Source: Acidobacteriota bacterium (GTDB lineage Bacteria > Acidobacteriota > Terriglobia > Terriglobales > Acidobacteriaceae). From it: DNA of 13,629 nt. The notes under the pieces are model-generated. The model had not been told where the DNA came from and searched no databases. It saw only the letters and a list, made by a program, of their open reading frames with translations. Numbering within the stretch: position 1 is the stretch's first letter; each line of letters begins with the position of its first letter. Positions 196-13,629 of this stretch are shown here, piece after piece. The stretch is from positions 1-13,629 of the forward strand of contig JAKART010000016.1 in the NCBI GenBank assembly GCA_021819255.1, in the 5' to 3' direction. The position numbers were made by a program, and so were the translations under genes.

Positions 196-1812
196 TCAGC
201 TTTGGGCTCCGTCCTTCACTCCCCGCACCCAGAGGGCGTCCACCTTGGCTGAGTCGTGCATCTCCAGGACTGGCGCTGCGGATGGTGTGCGGATGTGGAA
301 CAGATCCGCTCCATCTACATCCTGCATCAGGATCGCCGGACGAGCGTCTTCGGTCAGGGCGGAGATTTCGATCTCCGCAAGGCTCACGTTCTTCACATGG
401 CGCAGGTAAAAGCCCTGCGACGGCATCGGGCCGAACATGTTCGGCTCCGGATACCGATGCTCCTCTTCGGGCGGCGTGGTCGCCGCCTGGGCCGCCGTCC
501 CGCCGCCGCGATGCTGGATGTAGATGTTGTGCAGATGCAGATCCTCGATGGGGTAGCCGGGAACTCCGCTGATGATGCAGCCGTACTCGGACGATGCGTC
601 CGAACAGACGATGTTGCTGATGTTCACCCGGCGCAGGGCGCCAGTTTGGGTTGAGCCGGCAGGACCGCGCAGACGGCTGCCCAGGCGAAGGAAGAGCGGC
701 GCGGAGACGATGCCGCGCATGGTGATGTTGGTGACGGTGACATCCTCGAGATGAGCGCCGTCCACCGTCTCCAGCGCCAGACCCTGGCAGTGATCGAAGG
801 TGCAGTTCGAGATGGCGATGTTCTTGAATCCGCCGTTGGATTCGGTGCCCAGCTTGATCCGCCCGACCTGCGGAGCACGATGCGGAGCGGAGAGATCGAA
901 GTTCTTCCAGGCGCCGTCGATCATCGTCCCCAGTTGATAAGCGCCCGTCACATAGCAGTTGGAGATCTCCAGGTTCTCGGTAGCCCGCGGATAGCCCAGC
1001 GCATAGCTGCTCTTGAGCACGATGGCGTCATCCCAGGGCGAGTTGACGGCGCAGTTGACGATCCGGACATTTCGGCAGCAATCAATGTCCATGCCATCGC
1101 GGTTGGTGTCCATGGTCAAGCCGTCGATCAGCAGGTTGTCCACGCCCGTGGCCAGGATTCCAAACCAGCCGCCCTGCAGGATCTGGAAGTCACGCAGTTG
1201 CACATTGCGGCAGTTCTTCAGGCTGATGGACTTGTTCCCGACCCCTTCAACGCGCTGCTCCGCCGGTCGGCGGCTATGCGGATCATTGCTCCTCACCAGG
1301 CCGCGCCCCCAGATGCGCCCCGGCCCGGAGATGGAGAGATCATGCAGATCCTCACCCCAGATCAGGCTGTTTCGCCAGTGATTGTGGCCAAAGTCCTGAT
1401 ACGCCTCCCAGGGTTGAGCCGGACCGGGCGAATCGTAGCCGCCGGACTGCCCTGCCGGCAGCGGATCGGCGGCGATGATCACCGCGCCGTGATCCAGATA
1501 CAGCCCCACGTTGCTGCGGAGATGAATCGAATGGCAGAGGTACTGCCCGGCCCCGCAATAGACGGTTCCGCCGCCACGTTCAGCCGCAGCCTCAATGGCG
1601 CGGTTGATGGCCGGCGTATCCAGGCTGTGGCCGTCGCCGCGGGCGCCGAAGCTGCGCACGTCCAGCGCTCCGGCGGTTTGCCCAGAGGGCGCCGCAGCTC
1701 CGGCCGGGCTGGGCCCCTGACCCCAGGCGCGCGGCATGACGCCGCCCGCAGCGCTCAGCCCGACAAACTTCAAAAGGCCGCGGCGCATGTTTCCAGAAGG
1801 CTTCGGTTCCAT
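196..1812 (-). CDS. Exported GH28-family glycosidase (polygalacturonase/rhamnogalacturonase-like)
   Basis: Predicted 538-aa right-handed beta-helix glycosidase acting outside the cytoplasm on galacturonic-acid polymers such as pectin or rhamnogalacturonan. A Tat-type signal is visible near the N-terminus (residues 10-18, RRGLLKFVG, then a small-residue hydrophobic stretch to about AWG at 29-31). Residues 50-115 form the usual N-terminal segment (DVRSFGARGDG, GGGTVY). GH28 landmarks follow: NRDG at 237-240, DD at 261-262 (catalytic acids in the family), and RIK at 318-320 continuing into LGTESNGGF. The usual GHG motif between DD and RIK is not recognisable; the stretch there reads GTMIDG. The start at 1812 is chosen for the upstream GAGGAG and the compact Tat signal. 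ATG at 1851 (preceded by AGGTGGGTGG) and ATG at 1788 are alternatives. The frame stays open to 2118, but that extension runs through the promoter-like and palindromic region and looks non-coding. Exact substrate unknown. Confidence 0.87.
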   Translation of the reverse strand: MEPKPSGNMRRGLLKFVGLSAAGGVMPRAWGQGPSPAGAAAPSGQTAGALDVRSFGARGDGHSLDTPAINRAIEAAAERGGGTVYCGAGQYLCHSIHLRSNVGLYLDHGAVIIAADPLPAGQSGGYDSPGPAQPWEAYQDFGHNHWRNSLIWGEDLHDLSISGPGRIWGRGLVRSNDPHSRRPAEQRVEGVGNKSISLKNCRNVQLRDFQILQGGWFGILATGVDNLLIDGLTMDTNRDGMDIDCCRNVRIVNCAVNSPWDDAIVLKSSYALGYPRATENLEISNCYVTGAYQLGTMIDGAWKNFDLSAPHRAPQVGRIKLGTESNGGFKNIAISNCTFDHCQGLALETVDGAHLEDVTVTNITMRGIVSAPLFLRLGSRLRGPAGSTQTGALRRVNISNIVCSDASSEYGCIISGVPGYPIEDLHLHNIYIQHRGGGTAAQAATTPPEEEHRYPEPNMFGPMPSQGFYLRHVKNVSLAEIEISALTEDARPAILMQDVDGADLFHIRTPSAAPVLEMHDSAKVDALWVRGVKDGAQS

Positions 1813-1907
1813 GATCTCCTCGATGGTCTTACGAGTCTCGTTGGCCGCCATCCACCCACCTGATCTGCGGCTTGCCTGTCCGGCTCCACGTGGCTTCGCC
1901 AAAATGA

Positions 1908-1956
1908 AATATAGAACAAAGCAGACTTCCTTTGTCTGCCGCGACAAGTGTCTGCC
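1908..1956 (-). promoter_or_regulatory. Candidate GH28 promoter with repeated GCAGAC half-sites
   Basis: Reading the minus strand toward the GH28 gene, there is a -10-like TATATT (1913-1908), five of six to TATAAT. Immediately upstream lie GCAGAC half-sites: the direct repeat tgtctgcc at 1933-1940 and 1949-1956 (16-bp period) and an inverted partner gcagac at 1921-1926 facing gtctgc at 1934-1939. No good -35 hexamer sits 17 bp from the -10, which fits an activator-dependent or repressor-covered promoter. The predicted start near 1901 lies upstream of both the 1851 and 1812 start codons. The regulator is unknown. Confidence 0.35.
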
Positions 1957-2020
1957 GGGGCAAGCTTTGACCCGATGGATCCGAAGGGCGGCCCGGGAGA
2001 GCGGCTCGGCAGAGCCGAGT

Positions 2021-2148
2021 CGCCCTGGACCATTTTCCCTGAAGGTGTAAGCAAGGGGAACGACTCCTGTGGGCGTTTTCCTCAATGAAAACGCCACGGA
2101 ACGCCCGCTTCCGTACACCCATCATCAGGGAAAATGGTCTAGGGGGCG
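2021..2148. repeat. Palindromic MITE-like foldback element
   Basis: The outer arms are an exact 15-bp inverted repeat: gaccattttccctga (2028-2042) and tcagggaaaatggtc (2125-2139). With one mismatch and a small bulge the match extends outward (cgccctg at 2021-2027 against tagggggcg at 2140-2148). Inside, ggtgta (2044-2049) pairs with tacacc (2114-2119), and the centre is a 9-bp hairpin ggcgttttc (2072-2080) / gaaaacgcc (2087-2095) with a 6-nt loop. The whole stretch can fold on itself and encodes no plausible protein. It looks like a miniature inverted-repeat or REP-type element. I see no clear target-site duplication. The right arm contains the GH42 stop codon (2139-2141). Confidence 0.6.
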
Positions 2149-4277
2149 GCCGATGGCTGCGCGGGAGCCGATGGCTGCGCGGGCCGTTGCAGTACGGCGA
2201 CGGCAAAGCGTTGGAGGGTCACGGAGTGCTGGGATCCTCCGGCAAGCACATTCTGAAAGGCGGAGGGCAGGTTGACGGTCTGGGCGGCCTGGCCGAAGTT
2301 GATCAGAATCCAGACCTCATGACGCGCGTCGGAACGGATGGAAAGATCTACGCCCGGGGGAAGGGAGCCGAACTCCGGATGCACACCGGCTTCGGTCATC
2401 ATCCAGCTTGCGGCCTTGTTCAAGGTCGCGCCGTCCAGCTCCGCGCCGATGTAGGTGATGCTGCCCTGGCCCACCTTGCGGGTGATGGCCGCCGGCTGGT
2501 CATCCAGCCAGCCCAGGGGCGTCTTGCCGTAGCGCATCAGGACGTGGGTCTGCGGGCTGGATGTGGAGAGCAGCTCTGCCCACAGGTGAGAGTTCTCACC
2601 GCCCCACACTCCGGAGATCGGGATGGCGGTATCCAGTGCGTAGCACTGCTCCACCCGACCACCCAGCAGAGAGACCAGCGGGCCTGGCTGGCGCTCCGTC
2701 TGAAGGCCGTTGTCGACATTCTTCATCCCTGAACGCTGGGTGAGGACCAGGTGGCCTCCGTTGCGAACGTAGCTGATCAGGTTGGCCGCTTCCCGGTCCG
2801 TGATGAGGTTGAGTGCGGGGGCGATGACCAGCTTGTACTGGGAGAGATCGACGTCCGGGCTGACGATGTCCACCGAGTGCGCCAGGGCGCGGATGGCGCC
2901 GTAGTAGGAGACCATGGCATCAATCGGACTGAAGGCCTTGTTATGGCGCTGCCAGTTGATGGCCCAGTAGCTCTCATAGGAGTGCAGGATCGCCACCTGG
3001 GAGTGGACCGTGGTGCCGGAGAACGCCGGACCGGCCTTCGCAAACTCGCGGCCAACCTGGGCGACCTCGGAGTAAAGCGGGACCGGGGTGCCGTCGGGGC
3101 CGACCAGGGTGCCGTGGTACTCCTCCTGGCCATTCAAGGCCGAGCGCCACTGCCAGTAAGAGACGGCGTCGGCTCCGTGGCCAATGTCGAGCCATGCCAT
3201 GGCCCTCACCTCGCCCTTGTCCAGTGCATTGTTATCCGGAGACCAGTTGACGGATCCGGGCTGGGTCTCCATCACCCAGAAGTTCTTGCGCAGGAAACCG
3301 CGGGTCAGGTCATGCTCGGCTCCGTTATGTACGGGGTTGAGTTGGCCGGTGCCGACGTAGTCATCCCAGGAGGCCAGATCCAGATCGCGGCTGACGGTGT
3401 AAGCATCGTAGACATCCGCGAAGCCAATCATGTTCGTAGTGATGAACTGGCGCGAGTCAATGTTGGGACGCAGGGCGCGCAGTTGATTCGCCTGATAGCT
3501 GCGCCAGGTGTCGGAGACAAATCGCTTCCAGCTCAGCAACAGGCCGGGGTTGCCACGGTTGGTTTCGATGGGGATCTGGCTCCAGGCGGTGTAGGTCTGG
3601 CTCCAGTAGGCGGTGGTCCAGCGGGCGTTCAGGTTGTCCAGGGTCTGGTAACGGTGATGCAGCCAGTTTTGAAACTGTGCCTGGGCGATGGGTCCATAGG
3701 ACAGGGTCGCGTACTCATTGTCGATCTGCCAGCCGATCACATCCGGATCATGGCCAAAACGCCTCGCCTCCTGCAGCACCATTTGGTAGACCAGTTGGCG
3801 ATACAGTGGGTCAGCCCAGTTGAACTGCTGGCGGTTGCCGTGCTCGGCCCGGCGGCCGTCACTTTTGATGCGCAGCGTCTCGGGATACTTGGTGGTAAGC
3901 CAGGCGGGTGGAGCGGCGCTGGGCGTTCCGATCACCACCGCGATGTGGTGGCTCTCGGCAGCCCGGATGGCGCGATACATCCAGTCCAGATGATAGTCGC
4001 CTTCCGACGGCTCCAGTCTGGACCAGGCAAACTCGCCGATGCGGACAAAGCGGACGTGGGCCGCCTCCATCAGGTCCAGGTCAGCGTTCCAACGCGACTC
4101 CGGCCACTGCTCCGGGTACCAGGCCGCGCCCAGATACAGCGCCGGGGAGGAAGAAGCGGCCTCTGCCGGCGAAGAACCCGGCGCAGCAAGCCGCTCACCG
4201 GGCGCGCCGTTGGCCTGACGGAGGAGGAGCACCGCGGCAGCAAGACAAAGGGGCAGAGAAAGGCGGAAGATTTTCAT
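2139..4277 (-). CDS. Secreted GH42 beta-galactosidase
   Basis: A 712-aa retaining beta-galactosidase, likely acting in the periplasm or outside on beta-galactosides such as pectic galactan oligomers. An N-terminal signal peptide (residues 1 to about 24, hydrophobic core LPLCLAAAVLLL, possible cleavage after ANG) is followed by a Ser/Ala/Pro linker. The GH42 (beta/alpha)8 domain begins at about 46 with LGAAWYPEQWPESRW. NE at 187-188 (IGWQIDNEYA) is the predicted acid/base, and E337 (FWVMETQPGS) the predicted nucleophile. Residues from about 425 to 630 resemble the GH42 middle, glutamine-amidotransferase-like trimerisation domain, followed by a small C-terminal domain and a PAQPSA repeat tail. 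Start ATG 4277 has AGGA seven bases upstream. The stop lies within a palindromic element, so the last codons may be recent. It sits next to the co-oriented GH28 gene, which suggests plant cell-wall polysaccharide use. Confidence 0.92.
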   Translation of the reverse strand: MKIFRLSLPLCLAAAVLLLRQANGAPGERLAAPGSSPAEAASSSPALYLGAAWYPEQWPESRWNADLDLMEAAHVRFVRIGEFAWSRLEPSEGDYHLDWMYRAIRAAESHHIAVVIGTPSAAPPAWLTTKYPETLRIKSDGRRAEHGNRQQFNWADPLYRQLVYQMVLQEARRFGHDPDVIGWQIDNEYATLSYGPIAQAQFQNWLHHRYQTLDNLNARWTTAYWSQTYTAWSQIPIETNRGNPGLLLSWKRFVSDTWRSYQANQLRALRPNIDSRQFITTNMIGFADVYDAYTVSRDLDLASWDDYVGTGQLNPVHNGAEHDLTRGFLRKNFWVMETQPGSVNWSPDNNALDKGEVRAMAWLDIGHGADAVSYWQWRSALNGQEEYHGTLVGPDGTPVPLYSEVAQVGREFAKAGPAFSGTTVHSQVAILHSYESYWAINWQRHNKAFSPIDAMVSYYGAIRALAHSVDIVSPDVDLSQYKLVIAPALNLITDREAANLISYVRNGGHLVLTQRSGMKNVDNGLQTERQPGPLVSLLGGRVEQCYALDTAIPISGVWGGENSHLWAELLSTSSPQTHVLMRYGKTPLGWLDDQPAAITRKVGQGSITYIGAELDGATLNKAASWMMTEAGVHPEFGSLPPGVDLSIRSDARHEVWILINFGQAAQTVNLPSAFQNVLAGGSQHSVTLQRFAVAVLQRPAQPSAPAQPSAAP
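2149..2184. repeat. 18-bp tandem duplication in the GH42 3' end
   Basis: Two adjacent copies of an 18-bp unit (gccgatggctgcgcggg plus one variable base) at 2149-2166 and 2167-2184 encode the repeated PAQPSA at the C-terminus of the beta-galactosidase. The repeat abuts the palindromic element, so the end of the gene may have been remodelled by slippage or insertion. Confidence 0.7.
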
Positions 4278-10308: not shown

Positions 10309-10562
10309 ACAGCCTAGAGTACAAAGAAGACGGGAGGCTACCAAACTGTCCACGCCGCCGCGAACCACGGCTCTTCCGTCTTTCCTGCCGGTCGGCTCGC
10401 CCCGGAGCTGGTTCCGCAACGTTCTCCTGCGGGGAGGCGCGCTGACAGATTCACGCCGCGGAAGAGACCGCACCGCAGATGCGCTGGGCCGAATACAGGC
10501 CGGCTCCGGTTGGCGGGACAAACTCCCTTCAAAAGGGTGGAGACCGCGACTGTAAAATCCTG
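10309..10562. promoter_or_regulatory. Divergent rlmI/maeA promoter region
   Basis: This 254-bp gap must hold both promoters. Toward maeA, TAAAAT (10553-10558, five of six to TATAAT) ends 4 nt before the first ATG and 7 nt before the second, so transcription would start at the start codon. Toward rlmI, TACTCT ends 7 nt before the ATG, with TTGGTA 17 bp further upstream as a possible -35. Neither gene has a good Shine-Dalgarno. A small hairpin (CCCTT / AAGGG, 10525-10537) lies before the maeA box. Confidence 0.4.
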
Positions 10563-12311
10563 ATGATGGACAGGAAGCGCACGACGCCGAAGTTTCTTGA
10601 GACATCGTTGACCGGCTTGGGTCTTTTGACCTCTCCGATGTTCAACAAGGGAACAGCCTTCCCGGAGTCCGAACGGGATGAGTTTTCTCTGCATGGTTTA
10701 CTTCCGCCCCATGTGGGCACGCTTGACGAACAGGTGGAGCGGCGGCTGCGAGCCTTTCGTTCCCTGCCCGACGACTTCGCCCGCTACACCATGATGTGCG
10801 ACCTGCAGAACGTCAACGAGACCCTCTTCTACGCCCTGGTGACGCGCCACGTCGAGGAGATGCTGCCGATGATCTATACGCCGGCGGTGGGTGAAGGCTG
10901 CCAGCGGTTCTCCGAGATATGGCGGCGGCCTCGTGGCGTCTTCCTCAGCTATCCCAACCGCGAGCGCATCGAGACCATCCTCAGCCATCCGCGCTATGAC
11001 CACGTTCGCTGCATCGTGGTCTCTGACGGGGAGCGGATCCTGGGACTGGGCGACCAGGGCGCGGGCGGCATGGGCATTCCCATCGGCAAGCTGGCGCTGT
11101 ATACCGCGCTGGCCGGAATCCATCCGATGACCTGTCTTCCGGTGCTGCTGGATGTTGGCACCGATAACCCCGAGCGGATCGCCGACCCGCTCTACATCGG
11201 CTGGCGGCAGGAACGGGTCCGGGGCGCGGAGTACGACAAGTTCGTGGACACCTTCGTCCGCGTCGTCCGCAAACGCTGGCCGCATGTGCTGCTGCAGTGG
11301 GAGGACTTCGCCGGCCACAATGCCCGCAGACTCCTGGACCGTTATCGCGACCTGCTGCCCAGCTTCAACGACGACATCCAGGGAACAGCCGCGGTTGCCG
11401 TGGCGACCCTGCTGGCCGCGGTGAACCGATCCGGTGTTCCCCTCTCCGGGCAACGCGTGGTGATCTTCGGATTCGGATCCGCAGGACTGGGCATCAGCGA
11501 GCTTCTCACCCAGGCCCTGGCCGGCTCCGGCCTCAGCGAAACGGCTGCCCGCCGGCGCATCTTTGCCGTGGATATGGATGGTCTGCTGGTGGAAGGAGAG
11601 CAGGGCGCGGCCCTGGCTGCCGCGCAGAACCCTGACCCAGATCCTGACCACGCCCGGATGGCTTACGCGCGGCCGCTCCACGAGGTTCGTGATTGGCAGC
11701 GCGGCGAGCACGGAATTGACCTCCTGGAGGTGGTGCGGCGAGTGCAGCCCACCGTCCTGATCGGGGTCTCCGGCCAGGCCGGCGCCTTCACCGAAGAGGT
11801 GGTGCGCGCCATGATGGCCGGCCTCCGGGGACAAGGCGAGCGACCCGCGCCACCCGTGATCCTGCCACTCTCCAATCCCACCAGCCGTTGCGAAGCCTTG
11901 CCCAGCGACCTCCTTCGCTGGACCGATGGCCAGGCTATCTTGGGTACGGGCAGCCCCTTCCCTCCGGTGGAGTTTGGCGGAAGAGCCCTGAAGATTGCCC
12001 AGACCAACAACTCCTATATCTTCCCCGGTATGGCGCTGGGGATTGTCAGCGCCCGGGCCAGACGGGTCAGCGATGGCATGATCATGGCCGCCGCCCAGGC
12101 GCTGGCCGCCCTCTCGCCTGCGGGCAAGGATCCCCAGGCGGCTTTGCTGCCCCCGCTCGACTCCCTGCGCGAGGTCTCAAGGAACGTGGCCGTCGCGGTC
12201 GGCAGGCAGGCTGGCCGCGAGGGGCTTGCGGCTGTCGACGGTGAGGCGTTTCTGGAGGATCTGGCCGCCAATGTATGGGAGCCGGTCTACCTTCCCTACC
12301 GAAGAAGGTGA
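10563..12311 (+). CDS. maeA: NAD-type malic enzyme (oxaloacetate-decarboxylating)
   Basis: A 582-aa cytosolic enzyme converting L-malate to pyruvate and CO2 with reduction of NAD(P)+, linking the TCA cycle to pyruvate. Length and sequence follow the large MaeA/SfcA type (565 aa in E. coli), not the short MaeB type. Landmarks: FNKGTAFP (27-34), NVNETLFY (83-90), YTPAVG with catalytic Tyr105, GLGDQGAGGMGIPIGKL (161-177) with catalytic Lys176, metal-binding ED at 247-248 (QWEDFA), FNDDIQGTAAV (268-278), the nucleotide-binding GFGSAG (303-308), and downstream LSNPTSRCEA and NNSYIFPG. NAD preference is inferred from the family; the sequence does not prove it. Two adjacent ATGs (10563, 10566) are possible starts; neither has a nearby Shine-Dalgarno, and a -10-like box sits immediately upstream. 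An 84-base upstream extension to 10479 is open but unlike the family. Confidence 0.95.
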   Translation: MMDRKRTTPKFLETSLTGLGLLTSPMFNKGTAFPESERDEFSLHGLLPPHVGTLDEQVERRLRAFRSLPDDFARYTMMCDLQNVNETLFYALVTRHVEEMLPMIYTPAVGEGCQRFSEIWRRPRGVFLSYPNRERIETILSHPRYDHVRCIVVSDGERILGLGDQGAGGMGIPIGKLALYTALAGIHPMTCLPVLLDVGTDNPERIADPLYIGWRQERVRGAEYDKFVDTFVRVVRKRWPHVLLQWEDFAGHNARRLLDRYRDLLPSFNDDIQGTAAVAVATLLAAVNRSGVPLSGQRVVIFGFGSAGLGISELLTQALAGSGLSETAARRRIFAVDMDGLLVEGEQGAALAAAQNPDPDPDHARMAYARPLHEVRDWQRGEHGIDLLEVVRRVQPTVLIGVSGQAGAFTEEVVRAMMAGLRGQGERPAPPVILPLSNPTSRCEALPSDLLRWTDGQAILGTGSPFPPVEFGGRALKIAQTNNSYIFPGMALGIVSARARRVSDGMIMAAAQALAALSPAGKDPQAALLPPLDSLREVSRNVAVAVGRQAGREGLAAVDGEAFLEDLAANVWEPVYLPYRRR

Positions 12312-12432
12312 GGACTTTGCTTCCCCTGTCCCTCCTTCCGTCCAAGAAGAACCACCGGCTCTGCCAACCTGACAACAGGCTCCGCAACATTTGGAGAGAA
12401 TCTGCCGTCTAAAAGTCTAGAGGATTTTGGGT

Positions 12433-13629
12433 ATGACCTGGAATGACAGATGTCTCCTGCTCGCTCTCACGCTCTCAACGGTTTCGACCTTAGCGTTTGC
12501 ACAGGCTGGCGACCAGGAGGGCACGGCTCCTGGCTACCCGTCGACTCCAACAACGCAGTATCCCTACCAACAGCCCGCGCCAATTCAGCAGCCTGCAACC
12601 ACCCAGCAACCTGCGCCCATCCAGCGCACCACCGGCGGCCAGCAGTATCAGCAGTACCCACAGCAGTATCAGCAGCAGAACCAGCAGTATCAGCAGCCTG
12701 GCCAGCAGTACCCGCAGCAGAACCAGCAGTACCAGCAGTACCAGCAACCGAACCAGCAGTACCAGCAGCCTGCGCCCATCCAACGCAGCACCGGCGGTCA
12801 GCAGGGCCAACCGCAGTACCCACAGCAGTACCAGCAGCCATACCCGCAACAAAACCAGCAGTATCAGCAGGCATACCCGCAACAAAACCAGCAGTACCCG
12901 CAGCAGAACCAGCAGACTAAGCCGACGCAGGCTGCGGGCAACGCTCCACAGAGCACAAATCCCGATTACCAGAACCACTTTTTTAACCATGTGACCGCCG
13001 GACAGGTGATCGCTCCGGCGCATGGCACTGCCAGCGCCGTGCCCGCAACCGGGGTCTTTCTCCGCGTGGCTCAGGGCGCCAGCGTGCGCTTAGATGAGCT
13101 GAACGACACGGAGATGAAGCTGGAAGTGACCCGTGGCGTCGCCAATGTAGCCATCCACAACTCGGTCAAGAATGCCGAGCTACTGGTTGATCTCCCCGGT
13201 GGTGAGACGGCGATGGTCAAGGACGGCTTCTACACCTTCAACGCCGGCACAGACACCATGCGCGTGCTCAAGGGTGAGGCCTACGCATACCCCGGCGACC
13301 ACATGAGCCGGAAGCCGATCAAGATCAAGGAAAAGCACGCTATCTACTACAACGGGCCCCAGAGCAAGGTCTTTGAGTTCGACCCCAGCGAGGTCGTCGG
13401 AGACCTGGTTCCGTTTGGACCTCCCCAGGGCGCCAGCATGGGCAGCGGCGGCTTTGACGACGGCTACGGCGACCAGGCTTACGGCACCGGAGTTCCCTAT
13501 GACTGGTACCAGAACGAGGAGCCTTACTGGTGGTCCTACCCCTACTGGTGGGATCCCGGCTGGGATTGGGGCTTTGGCCTCGGCTGGGGTTGGGGCTGGG
13601 GTGGCTGGGGTGGTTGGGGTGGATACGGC
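12433..13629 (+). CDS. Secreted FecR-like protein with Q/Y/P-rich prion-like tract (partial)
   Basis: The frame is open from ATG 12433 to the window edge (399 codons, no stop), so the C-terminus is missing. GAGGA sits 8 nt before the ATG. Residues 1-23 form a signal peptide (core LLLALTLSTVSTLAFA, cleavage after AFA), so the protein leaves the cytoplasm. Residues 41-161 are low complexity: 58 Gln, 16 Tyr and 6 Asn in 121 residues, no Asp or Glu, two Arg, built from QQY, PQQ and NQQ steps, with PAPIQR-S/T-TGGQQ at 60-71 and again at 113-124. Residues about 183-305 resemble a FecR-like beta domain (FLRVAQGASVRLDEL, EVTRGVANVAI, DLPGGETAMVKDGFYTF, MRVLKGEAYAYPGD). From 358 to 399 there are 12 Trp among Gly, Tyr and Asp (GWGWGWGGWGGWGG). 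No sigma or anti-sigma partner is visible. Function unknown; a surface or matrix role is a guess from composition. Confidence 0.85.
   Translation, partial: MTWNDRCLLLALTLSTVSTLAFAQAGDQEGTAPGYPSTPTTQYPYQQPAPIQQPATTQQPAPIQRTTGGQQYQQYPQQYQQQNQQYQQPGQQYPQQNQQYQQYQQPNQQYQQPAPIQRSTGGQQGQPQYPQQYQQPYPQQNQQYQQAYPQQNQQYPQQNQQTKPTQAAGNAPQSTNPDYQNHFFNHVTAGQVIAPAHGTASAVPATGVFLRVAQGASVRLDELNDTEMKLEVTRGVANVAIHNSVKNAELLVDLPGGETAMVKDGFYTFNAGTDTMRVLKGEAYAYPGDHMSRKPIKIKEKHAIYYNGPQSKVFEFDPSEVVGDLVPFGPPQGASMGSGGFDDGYGDQAYGTGVPYDWYQNEEPYWWSYPYWWDPGWDWGFGLGWGWGWGGWGGWGGYG
12610..12918. repeat. CAG-rich coding repeat array
   Basis: Irregular short tandem repeats of cagcag-tac/tat and cagcag-aac codons encode the Gln/Tyr tract of the partial secreted protein. 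A longer unit beginning cctgcgcccatcca recurs 159 bp apart (12610 and 12769), so an ancestral segment of 53 codons was probably duplicated. Third-base variation (cag/caa, tac/tat) shows the repeats are not freshly copied. Such arrays are prone to length change by slippage. Confidence 0.75.

Follow-up and report, generated by a model that had tools for sequence, protein, structure and literature searches.

The DNA analyzed here, called the window, is 13,629 nucleotides long and is one whole contig (G000:C310) of a 67% complete, 2.7 Mb genome of an Acidobacteriota bacterium. It ends within a gene (12433..13629, + strand; 399 codons from the ATG at 12433, no stop up to the contig end) for a protein that we read, with about an even chance of being right, as an exported, stand-alone component of the envelope or extracellular matrix of Acidobacteriaceae. 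The protein is laid out as a signal peptide, a tract rich in Gln, Pro, and Tyr (the Q/P/Y tract), a folded core (residues 184–335), and an aromatic, Gly-rich tail, and, judged from their sequences, other exported proteins of the genus carry a similar tail on cores without detectable relation to this one. The FecR fold of the core, WXXGXW repeats, and Gly-rich secreted proteins are of already known kinds; among the open-licence papers listed in our searches, we found none on the architecture of this protein or on the shared tail, and none pairing a FecR domain with Acidobacteria or Granulicella.

Tail and C-terminal residue

The visible tail (13438..13629, +), delimited by sequence, repeats, and composition and modeled with a predicted local distance difference test (pLDDT) score below 50, holds 12 Trp in its last 42 residues, the same number as in the initial annotation, which had been made from the sequence alone. 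The contig end falls in or beside a GGCTGGGGT repeat; in the relatives L018 and L014, the stop comes 46 and 55 tail residues further on, with tail lengths of 112 and 121 versus 66 visible in the window protein. Contigs stop inside tract or tail repeats in several cases (the window at 13582–13629, L016 at its start, and L054 at the L015/L054 end), so that such genes may be under-represented in short-read assemblies.

We compared 48 distinct loci, namely the window, 13 named loci, and 40 chosen from the stronger core-profile matches, minus six duplicates (L013, L015, L016, L019, L020, and L021). The tails of all 48 consist of 17–51% Gly and 20–43% Tyr/Trp/Phe, and a membrane-like stretch was found in none of them; near-identical pairs (L068/L077 and L058/L059) are still in this set, and its counts overstate the number of independent events. 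All 45 of the 45 closed open reading frames (ORFs) of the family finish on a basic residue, Arg in 42 and His in 3, close to a run of Gly. By comparison, 41/137 conserved neighboring ORFs, used as a control, end in Arg, His, or Lys, and in a cruder control of 591 ORFs of at least 200 residues (shadow ORFs included), 94 end in Arg or His and 4 have a tail-like composition. The Gly/aromatic tail is kept throughout the family, together with a basic last residue in closed ORFs. Two coreless paralogues (L114 and L117) resemble the family in their N-terminus ('TQAQPAPIQ') and tail and have no FecR core.

At the DNA level, the ending GGGG[HR]R-stop gave 14 matches versus 2 for the reversed pattern in 7 genomes. 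In a comparison of 61 relatives, the 28 genomes of the genus had 55 versus 7 (own genome: 0), and the sister family f81, with 14 genomes, had 0 versus 12. From 67 distinct matches, 41 loci were fetched, and 8 of these were set aside for want of an export-like start. The remaining 33 comprise 5 FecR-core proteins, 11 of a YACAPYGYYG type, 9 of a WXXGXW type, 2 coreless paralogues with the N-terminus of the FecR-core proteins, and 6 others, some of which look like members of the YACAPYGYYG family by eye. PF12779 was confirmed in 3/3 WXXGXW-type proteins scanned.

Since the tail pattern itself selects the ending, we repeated the test with ORFs chosen by their core only. For each family, 30 loci were fetched (of 72 YACAPYGYYG and 98 WXXGXW matches), 29 ORFs were found by motif, and duplicates, judged by the last 40 residues, were removed. 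Of the closed ORFs of the genus, 27/28 of the YACAPYGYYG and 28/28 of the WXXGXW type end in Arg, His, or Lys, and the three families together have a basic last residue in 100/101 core-selected closed ORFs; many of these are close relatives, the events being fewer than the counts, and L159 and L182 seem frame-shifted at the end, which makes the basic ending of L182 accidental. WXXGXW proteins occur in 28/28 genomes of the genus and YACAPYGYYG proteins in 26/28. In a wider protein database, 99 of the best 120 of 7970 WXXGXW matches end in a basic residue and 93 in Arg, and those of these 120 that lie on contigs of at least 10 kb end in Arg, His, or Lys in 38/41 cases. Two named Dyella members of the YACAPYGYYG family have His as the last residue and no long Gly tail. 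On these counts, the terminal basic residue is a strong regularity within the genus and a looser one outside it.

The likeness between the families extends to the N-terminal side. At least 17 Gln are present in residues 21–120 of 6/29 WXXGXW ORFs (L185, L189, L190, L191, L192, and L197), and no control ORF has 17 Gln in any 100 residues (0/137). The layout of signal peptide, Q-rich tract, core, Gly tail, and basic end is thus found in two families of the genus. Neither the core profile nor Pfam relates the FecR-type cores to those of the WXXGXW proteins, and the layout of signal peptide, Q-tract, core, and Gly tail may have arisen twice. We also noted four WXXGXW ORFs without a Gly tail in which Arg or Lys is still last (L194, L199, L200, and L201) and, in the own genome, WXXGXW gene pieces at two contig ends, L204 (C245) and L203 (C89), the former with a long Gly-Tyr-Gln repeat tract ahead of its WXXGXW core.

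Core, tract, and gene context

The putative signal peptide, MTWNDRCLLLALTLSTVSTLAFA (12433..12501, +), is of the Sec type by eye, with a hydrophobic N-terminus followed by AFA/Q, a reading that also draws on the N-terminal hydropathy across the family. The core (12982..13437, +), delimited by family profile, model, and PDB matches, has a pLDDT of about 90 over most of residues 184–335 in the model, and its predicted structure matches FecR-family structures in the PDB. A direct Pfam scan of the window protein returned 0 families, and an NCBIfam scan returned five rows, including PRK07003 and PavB, far under their cut-offs and thus no usable family. Across the family, however, PF04773 matched 18/36 members at an E value of at most 1 (best 4.4e-5), relative L106 scoring 30.2 bits, above the cut-off of 24, and L111 20.6 bits, below it. 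The FecR-like assignment of the initial annotation therefore holds for the family and the fold, and not for a direct Pfam search of this protein.

The alignment with PupR covers only PupR residues 111–251. Excerpts of PMC9249621 describe the periplasmic part of PupR as two subdomains, 110–238 and 250–324; the second is absent here, since the alignment stops at PupR residue 251 and the remainder of the visible chain consists of low-complexity sequence that has a pLDDT below 50. Just 7 residues precede the hydrophobic stretch, which by eye is signal-peptide-like, and there is no N-terminal cytoplasmic anti-sigma domain. The core is thus predicted to fold like the first of the periplasmic beta subdomains in the FecR/PupR family, with the rest of the regulator absent. 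An export-type start, a FecR-like folded core, and two low-complexity flanks had all been proposed initially, and the present results support this combination.

The Q/P/Y tract (residues 42–161; 12556..12915, +) is marked by composition, internal tandem repeats, and low AlphaFold confidence. Its 120 residues are 48% Gln, 15% Pro, and 13% Tyr and include no acidic residue; the 121-residue stretch richest in Gln contains 58 Gln (48%) and 0 acidic residues, as first reported. Such richness in Gln is not a matter of chance, given that 0/137 control ORFs reach 17 Gln per 100 residues. In the 67% complete own genome, the DNA word encoding QQYQQ has exact matches at 8 places, every one within the window gene; allowing one mismatch adds 8 matches in the window gene and 11 elsewhere in the own genome.

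In a tree of 83 core sequences (FastTree, midpoint-rooted; some leaves are one gene from two sources), the 10 proteins with at least 20 Gln before the core form one clade of exactly 10 leaves with a support of 1.0, and the remaining 73/83 have at most 8. The initial annotation had named orthologues without both tracts as evidence against itself; of the two, the Q-rich tract is absent from most core sequences, yet the aromatic/Gly tail is present in 48/48 loci. The 36 aligned homologues retain a short linker that follows the pattern Q..AP(I/V).R, and more distant homologues have a different N-terminus. The tract repeats this linker motif and so looks like a tandem expansion of it, with tandem repeats at the DNA level. 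Its length within the clade ranges from 33 to 130 residues, and P0002 and L018 are identical apart from one 37-residue in-frame repeat, a difference that could be polymorphism or assembly collapse. Across all 11 clade sequences listed, the composition is 45–54% Gln, 14–18% Pro, and 12–15% Tyr, with at most one acidic residue. The tract is an insertion that lies between signal peptide and core, is confined to one clade, and varies in length.

The named homologues belong to Acidobacteriaceae or Acidobacteria, Granulicella included; the gene is present in the genome of the cultured soil strain Granulicella paludicola DSM 22464 (L020/L056). A core-profile match (E value of at most 0.001) was obtained in 116/250 genomes of the family, 12 genomes of the own genus (own genome included) appearing on that list with one match each, and in 78/297 genomes of the phylum. 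Many weaker matches of the family search sit in other, longer FecR-like ORFs; a second class of weakly matching FecR-like ORFs, about 500–950 residues long, is common in family and phylum.

The upstream neighbor is a malic enzyme gene (10479..12311, +; Pfam/NCBIfam match and synteny), which also precedes the gene in L014, L018, L053, and L054, the other four Q-tract loci for which upstream sequence is available. Scanned for promoters and terminators, 12250–12600 yielded none of the former and a single terminator-like site, located on the opposite strand (expected 0.3, standard deviation 0.6). Downstream, nadD occurs in 10/47 loci and rsfS in 9/47, some loci being cut by contig ends; nadD-rsfS-rlmH were rejected as functional partners, as all ten loci with nadD fall on the same side of the core tree and the gene also occurs in other surroundings. 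None of 30 flanking ORFs from 15 loci matched an extracytoplasmic function (ECF) sigma factor or a TonB receptor (Pfam, E value of at most 1e-5), where 9 of the 30 matched nothing and the 30 are half of the 60 neighbors listed for these 15 further loci, ORFs farther off lying outside the scan. The same holds for the 7 window neighbors (0/7, Pfam), and the sigma-70 gene in the window has region 1.1, like a primary sigma factor. A SpoIIE-type phosphatase adjoins the gene of L087, and a HATPase_c_2 protein that of L089. In some Granulicella loci, large ORFs 2–6 kb off on the other strand have by eye the look of what we take to be TonB/Oar-type outer-membrane proteins. Iron signalling was rejected as a role, with no anti-sigma domain or second PupR subdomain in the chain and no ECF sigma factor or TonB receptor match among the scanned neighbors. 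The gene behaves as a stand-alone unit. Elsewhere in the window, 196–4277 (−) holds consecutive genes of the GH28/pectate-lyase-like and GH42 beta-galactosidase types, which may work as a pair in degrading plant polymers.

Proposed role and rival explanations

In our proposal, the tail would be the working part common to these proteins. Its many stickers, Tyr/Trp/Phe, His, and Arg spaced by Gly, would bind multivalently to one another, to cell-wall glycans, or to a polysaccharide matrix, and these contacts would bring the protein into a surface layer. What sets each protein apart would be its core, here one with a FecR fold, which may hold a partner or serve as a rigid spacer. The Q/P/Y tract may be a flexible tether that is weakly sticky in addition. 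Fibrillar cellulose chambers or amorphous extracellular material are reported for Acidobacteria of this group in excerpts of PMC9693552, which lends plausibility, though not proof, to a matrix role. A matrix or adhesive assembly, already suggested by the initial annotation, remains to our mind the most likely class. More tentatively, and on balance doubtfully, the tail could be an undescribed C-terminal module free of transmembrane helices (a long repeat of Gly, aromatic residues, and His, almost always closed by a basic residue), carried by at least three unrelated exported cores and by coreless paralogues and read by dedicated envelope or matrix machinery, with Q/P/Y tracts as a second, repeatedly invented part of the toolkit.

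Several observations weigh against the matrix protein with a shared tail. In the few same-family and same-class genomes compared beyond the genus, GGGG[HR]R-stop is not enriched (3 matches versus 1 reversed in 9 same-family genomes and 1 versus 3 in 9 same-class genomes). The basic end of YACAPYGYYG proteins is weaker in the wider database, with 83 basic and 70 Arg endings among the best 120 of 5143 matches, fragments included, and only 15/25 basic on those contigs of at least 10 kb found among these 120. Some WXXGXW and YACAPYGYYG proteins end in Arg, His, or Lys without a Gly tail, so that the last residue is in part independent of the tail. The own genome, 67% complete, has no GGGG[HR]R-stop and no YACAPYGYYG match, and its two closed WXXGXW ORFs end in Arg, both without a Gly tail. 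Gly-rich tails can be alike through convergence on simple repeats, the likeness being one in the kind of tail, and a low pLDDT is expected of low-complexity sequence whatever its role. The matrix function is one that we infer, along with localisation, assembly, and binding.

The strongest rivals take the tail as chiefly a sorting signal and the tract as a nearly neutral repeat expansion. In the former, which we regard as unlikely, tail and terminal basic residue would mainly serve sorting or export, a dedicated Acidobacteriaceae machine reading the free C-terminus and placing or processing the proteins, with stickiness secondary. This would suit the basic end of 100/101 core-selected closed ORFs in three families (45/45, 27/28, and 28/28, versus 41/137 controls) and its persistence where the Gly-rich tail is absent (for example, L194 and L199). 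However, known signals of this type (LPXTG, PEP-CTERM, and GlyGly-CTERM) have, according to excerpts of PMC3237569, a transmembrane helix, which is absent here; the tail has no known reader, no search for a candidate machine having been made; many of the compared ORFs are close relatives, and the YACAPYGYYG regularity loosens in the wider database. It also seems to us rather improbable that the Q/P/Y tract, and perhaps the tail, expanded almost neutrally, with selection only on the core and some C-terminal feature. The restriction of the tract to one clade (10/83 core sequences, support 1.0, the other 73 having at most 8 Gln), its range of 33 to 130 residues, the 37-residue repeat that separates P0002 from L018, and the DNA-level tandem repeats point that way, whereas the steady composition of the 11 clade sequences, the Q-rich N-termini of another exported family (6/29 WXXGXW ORFs), and, for the tail, its retention in 48/48 distinct loci argue against it.

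We consider far less probable still a FecR-derived regulator or surface sensor (the latter an option in the initial annotation) that would signal to a sigma factor or TonB receptor. The PupR/FecR fold of the core, the single signalling-type neighbors (SpoIIE-type phosphatase, HATPase_c_2), and the presumed TonB/Oar-type ORFs are in its favor, but the protein starts with a signal peptide in place of a cytoplasmic anti-sigma domain, aligns with PupR over 111–251 only, short of the second subdomain, and has no ECF sigma factor or TonB receptor among the 30 flanking ORFs scanned, the sigma gene of the window being of the primary type. As this protein shows, sigma-factor signalling cannot be read from a FecR fold. 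That the Q/Y tract would make the protein a functional amyloid or prion is hardly to be expected either. The tract is Q/N-rich, charge-poor, and Tyr-containing, as in prion-like and amyloid proteins, and a bacterial survey, in excerpts of PMC4606120, lists FecR among the domains linked to prion-like proteins. Against this stand the 15% Pro, a PAPA-like score of the tract (mean −0.10, maximum 0.014; provisional weights) under a threshold taken as 0.05 and below that threshold in 7/7 proteins tried, and the lack of the tract in 73/83 core sequences. The term prion-like, used initially, is supported by composition only.

The wider meaning is that one odd protein leads to a testable set: in a soil lineage, several exported families with poor annotation have a tail of a common kind, and across the genus its final residue is nearly constant. 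A similar tail on exported proteins of related bacteria hints at a common, so far undescribed way of surface or matrix building or anchoring. Should the tail prove to send proteins to the surface or matrix, it would provide a handle on how these acidobacteria make extracellular material and might represent a novel class of C-terminal signal.

Comparison with known systems

The window protein shares the periplasmic beta fold of FecR/PupR regulators (PF04773). In those regulators, an anti-sigma domain and a membrane anchor occupy the place of its signal peptide; it lacks their second periplasmic subdomain and has low-complexity flanks in addition, and the ECF sigma factor and TonB receptor genes adjacent to the regulators have no match among the flanking ORFs scanned for its family. 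The tick-cement glycine-rich protein described in excerpts of PMC11794139 is likewise secreted, disordered, and Gly-rich, but eukaryotic and devoid of a FecR core, so that the likeness is in composition only. WXXGXW (YXWGXW) proteins (PF12779) are also of an exported type, many with a Gly/His tail ending in HR or RR and some with Q/P/Y-rich N-termini as in the window protein; they differ in their aromatic core, which gives no FecR-core-profile match and has its own Pfam family, and the window protein gave no Pfam match to PF12779 for a WXXGXW repeat. For these proteins we found no function in the literature searched, where WXXGXW appeared only as a table row in one paper and YXWGXW not at all. 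GlyGly-CTERM, PEP-CTERM, and LPXTG regions are, like the tail, shared C-terminal regions with a basic end on unrelated exported proteins; in contrast to them, the tail has no transmembrane helix (48/48), is much longer, and is repetitive in aromatic residues and Gly.
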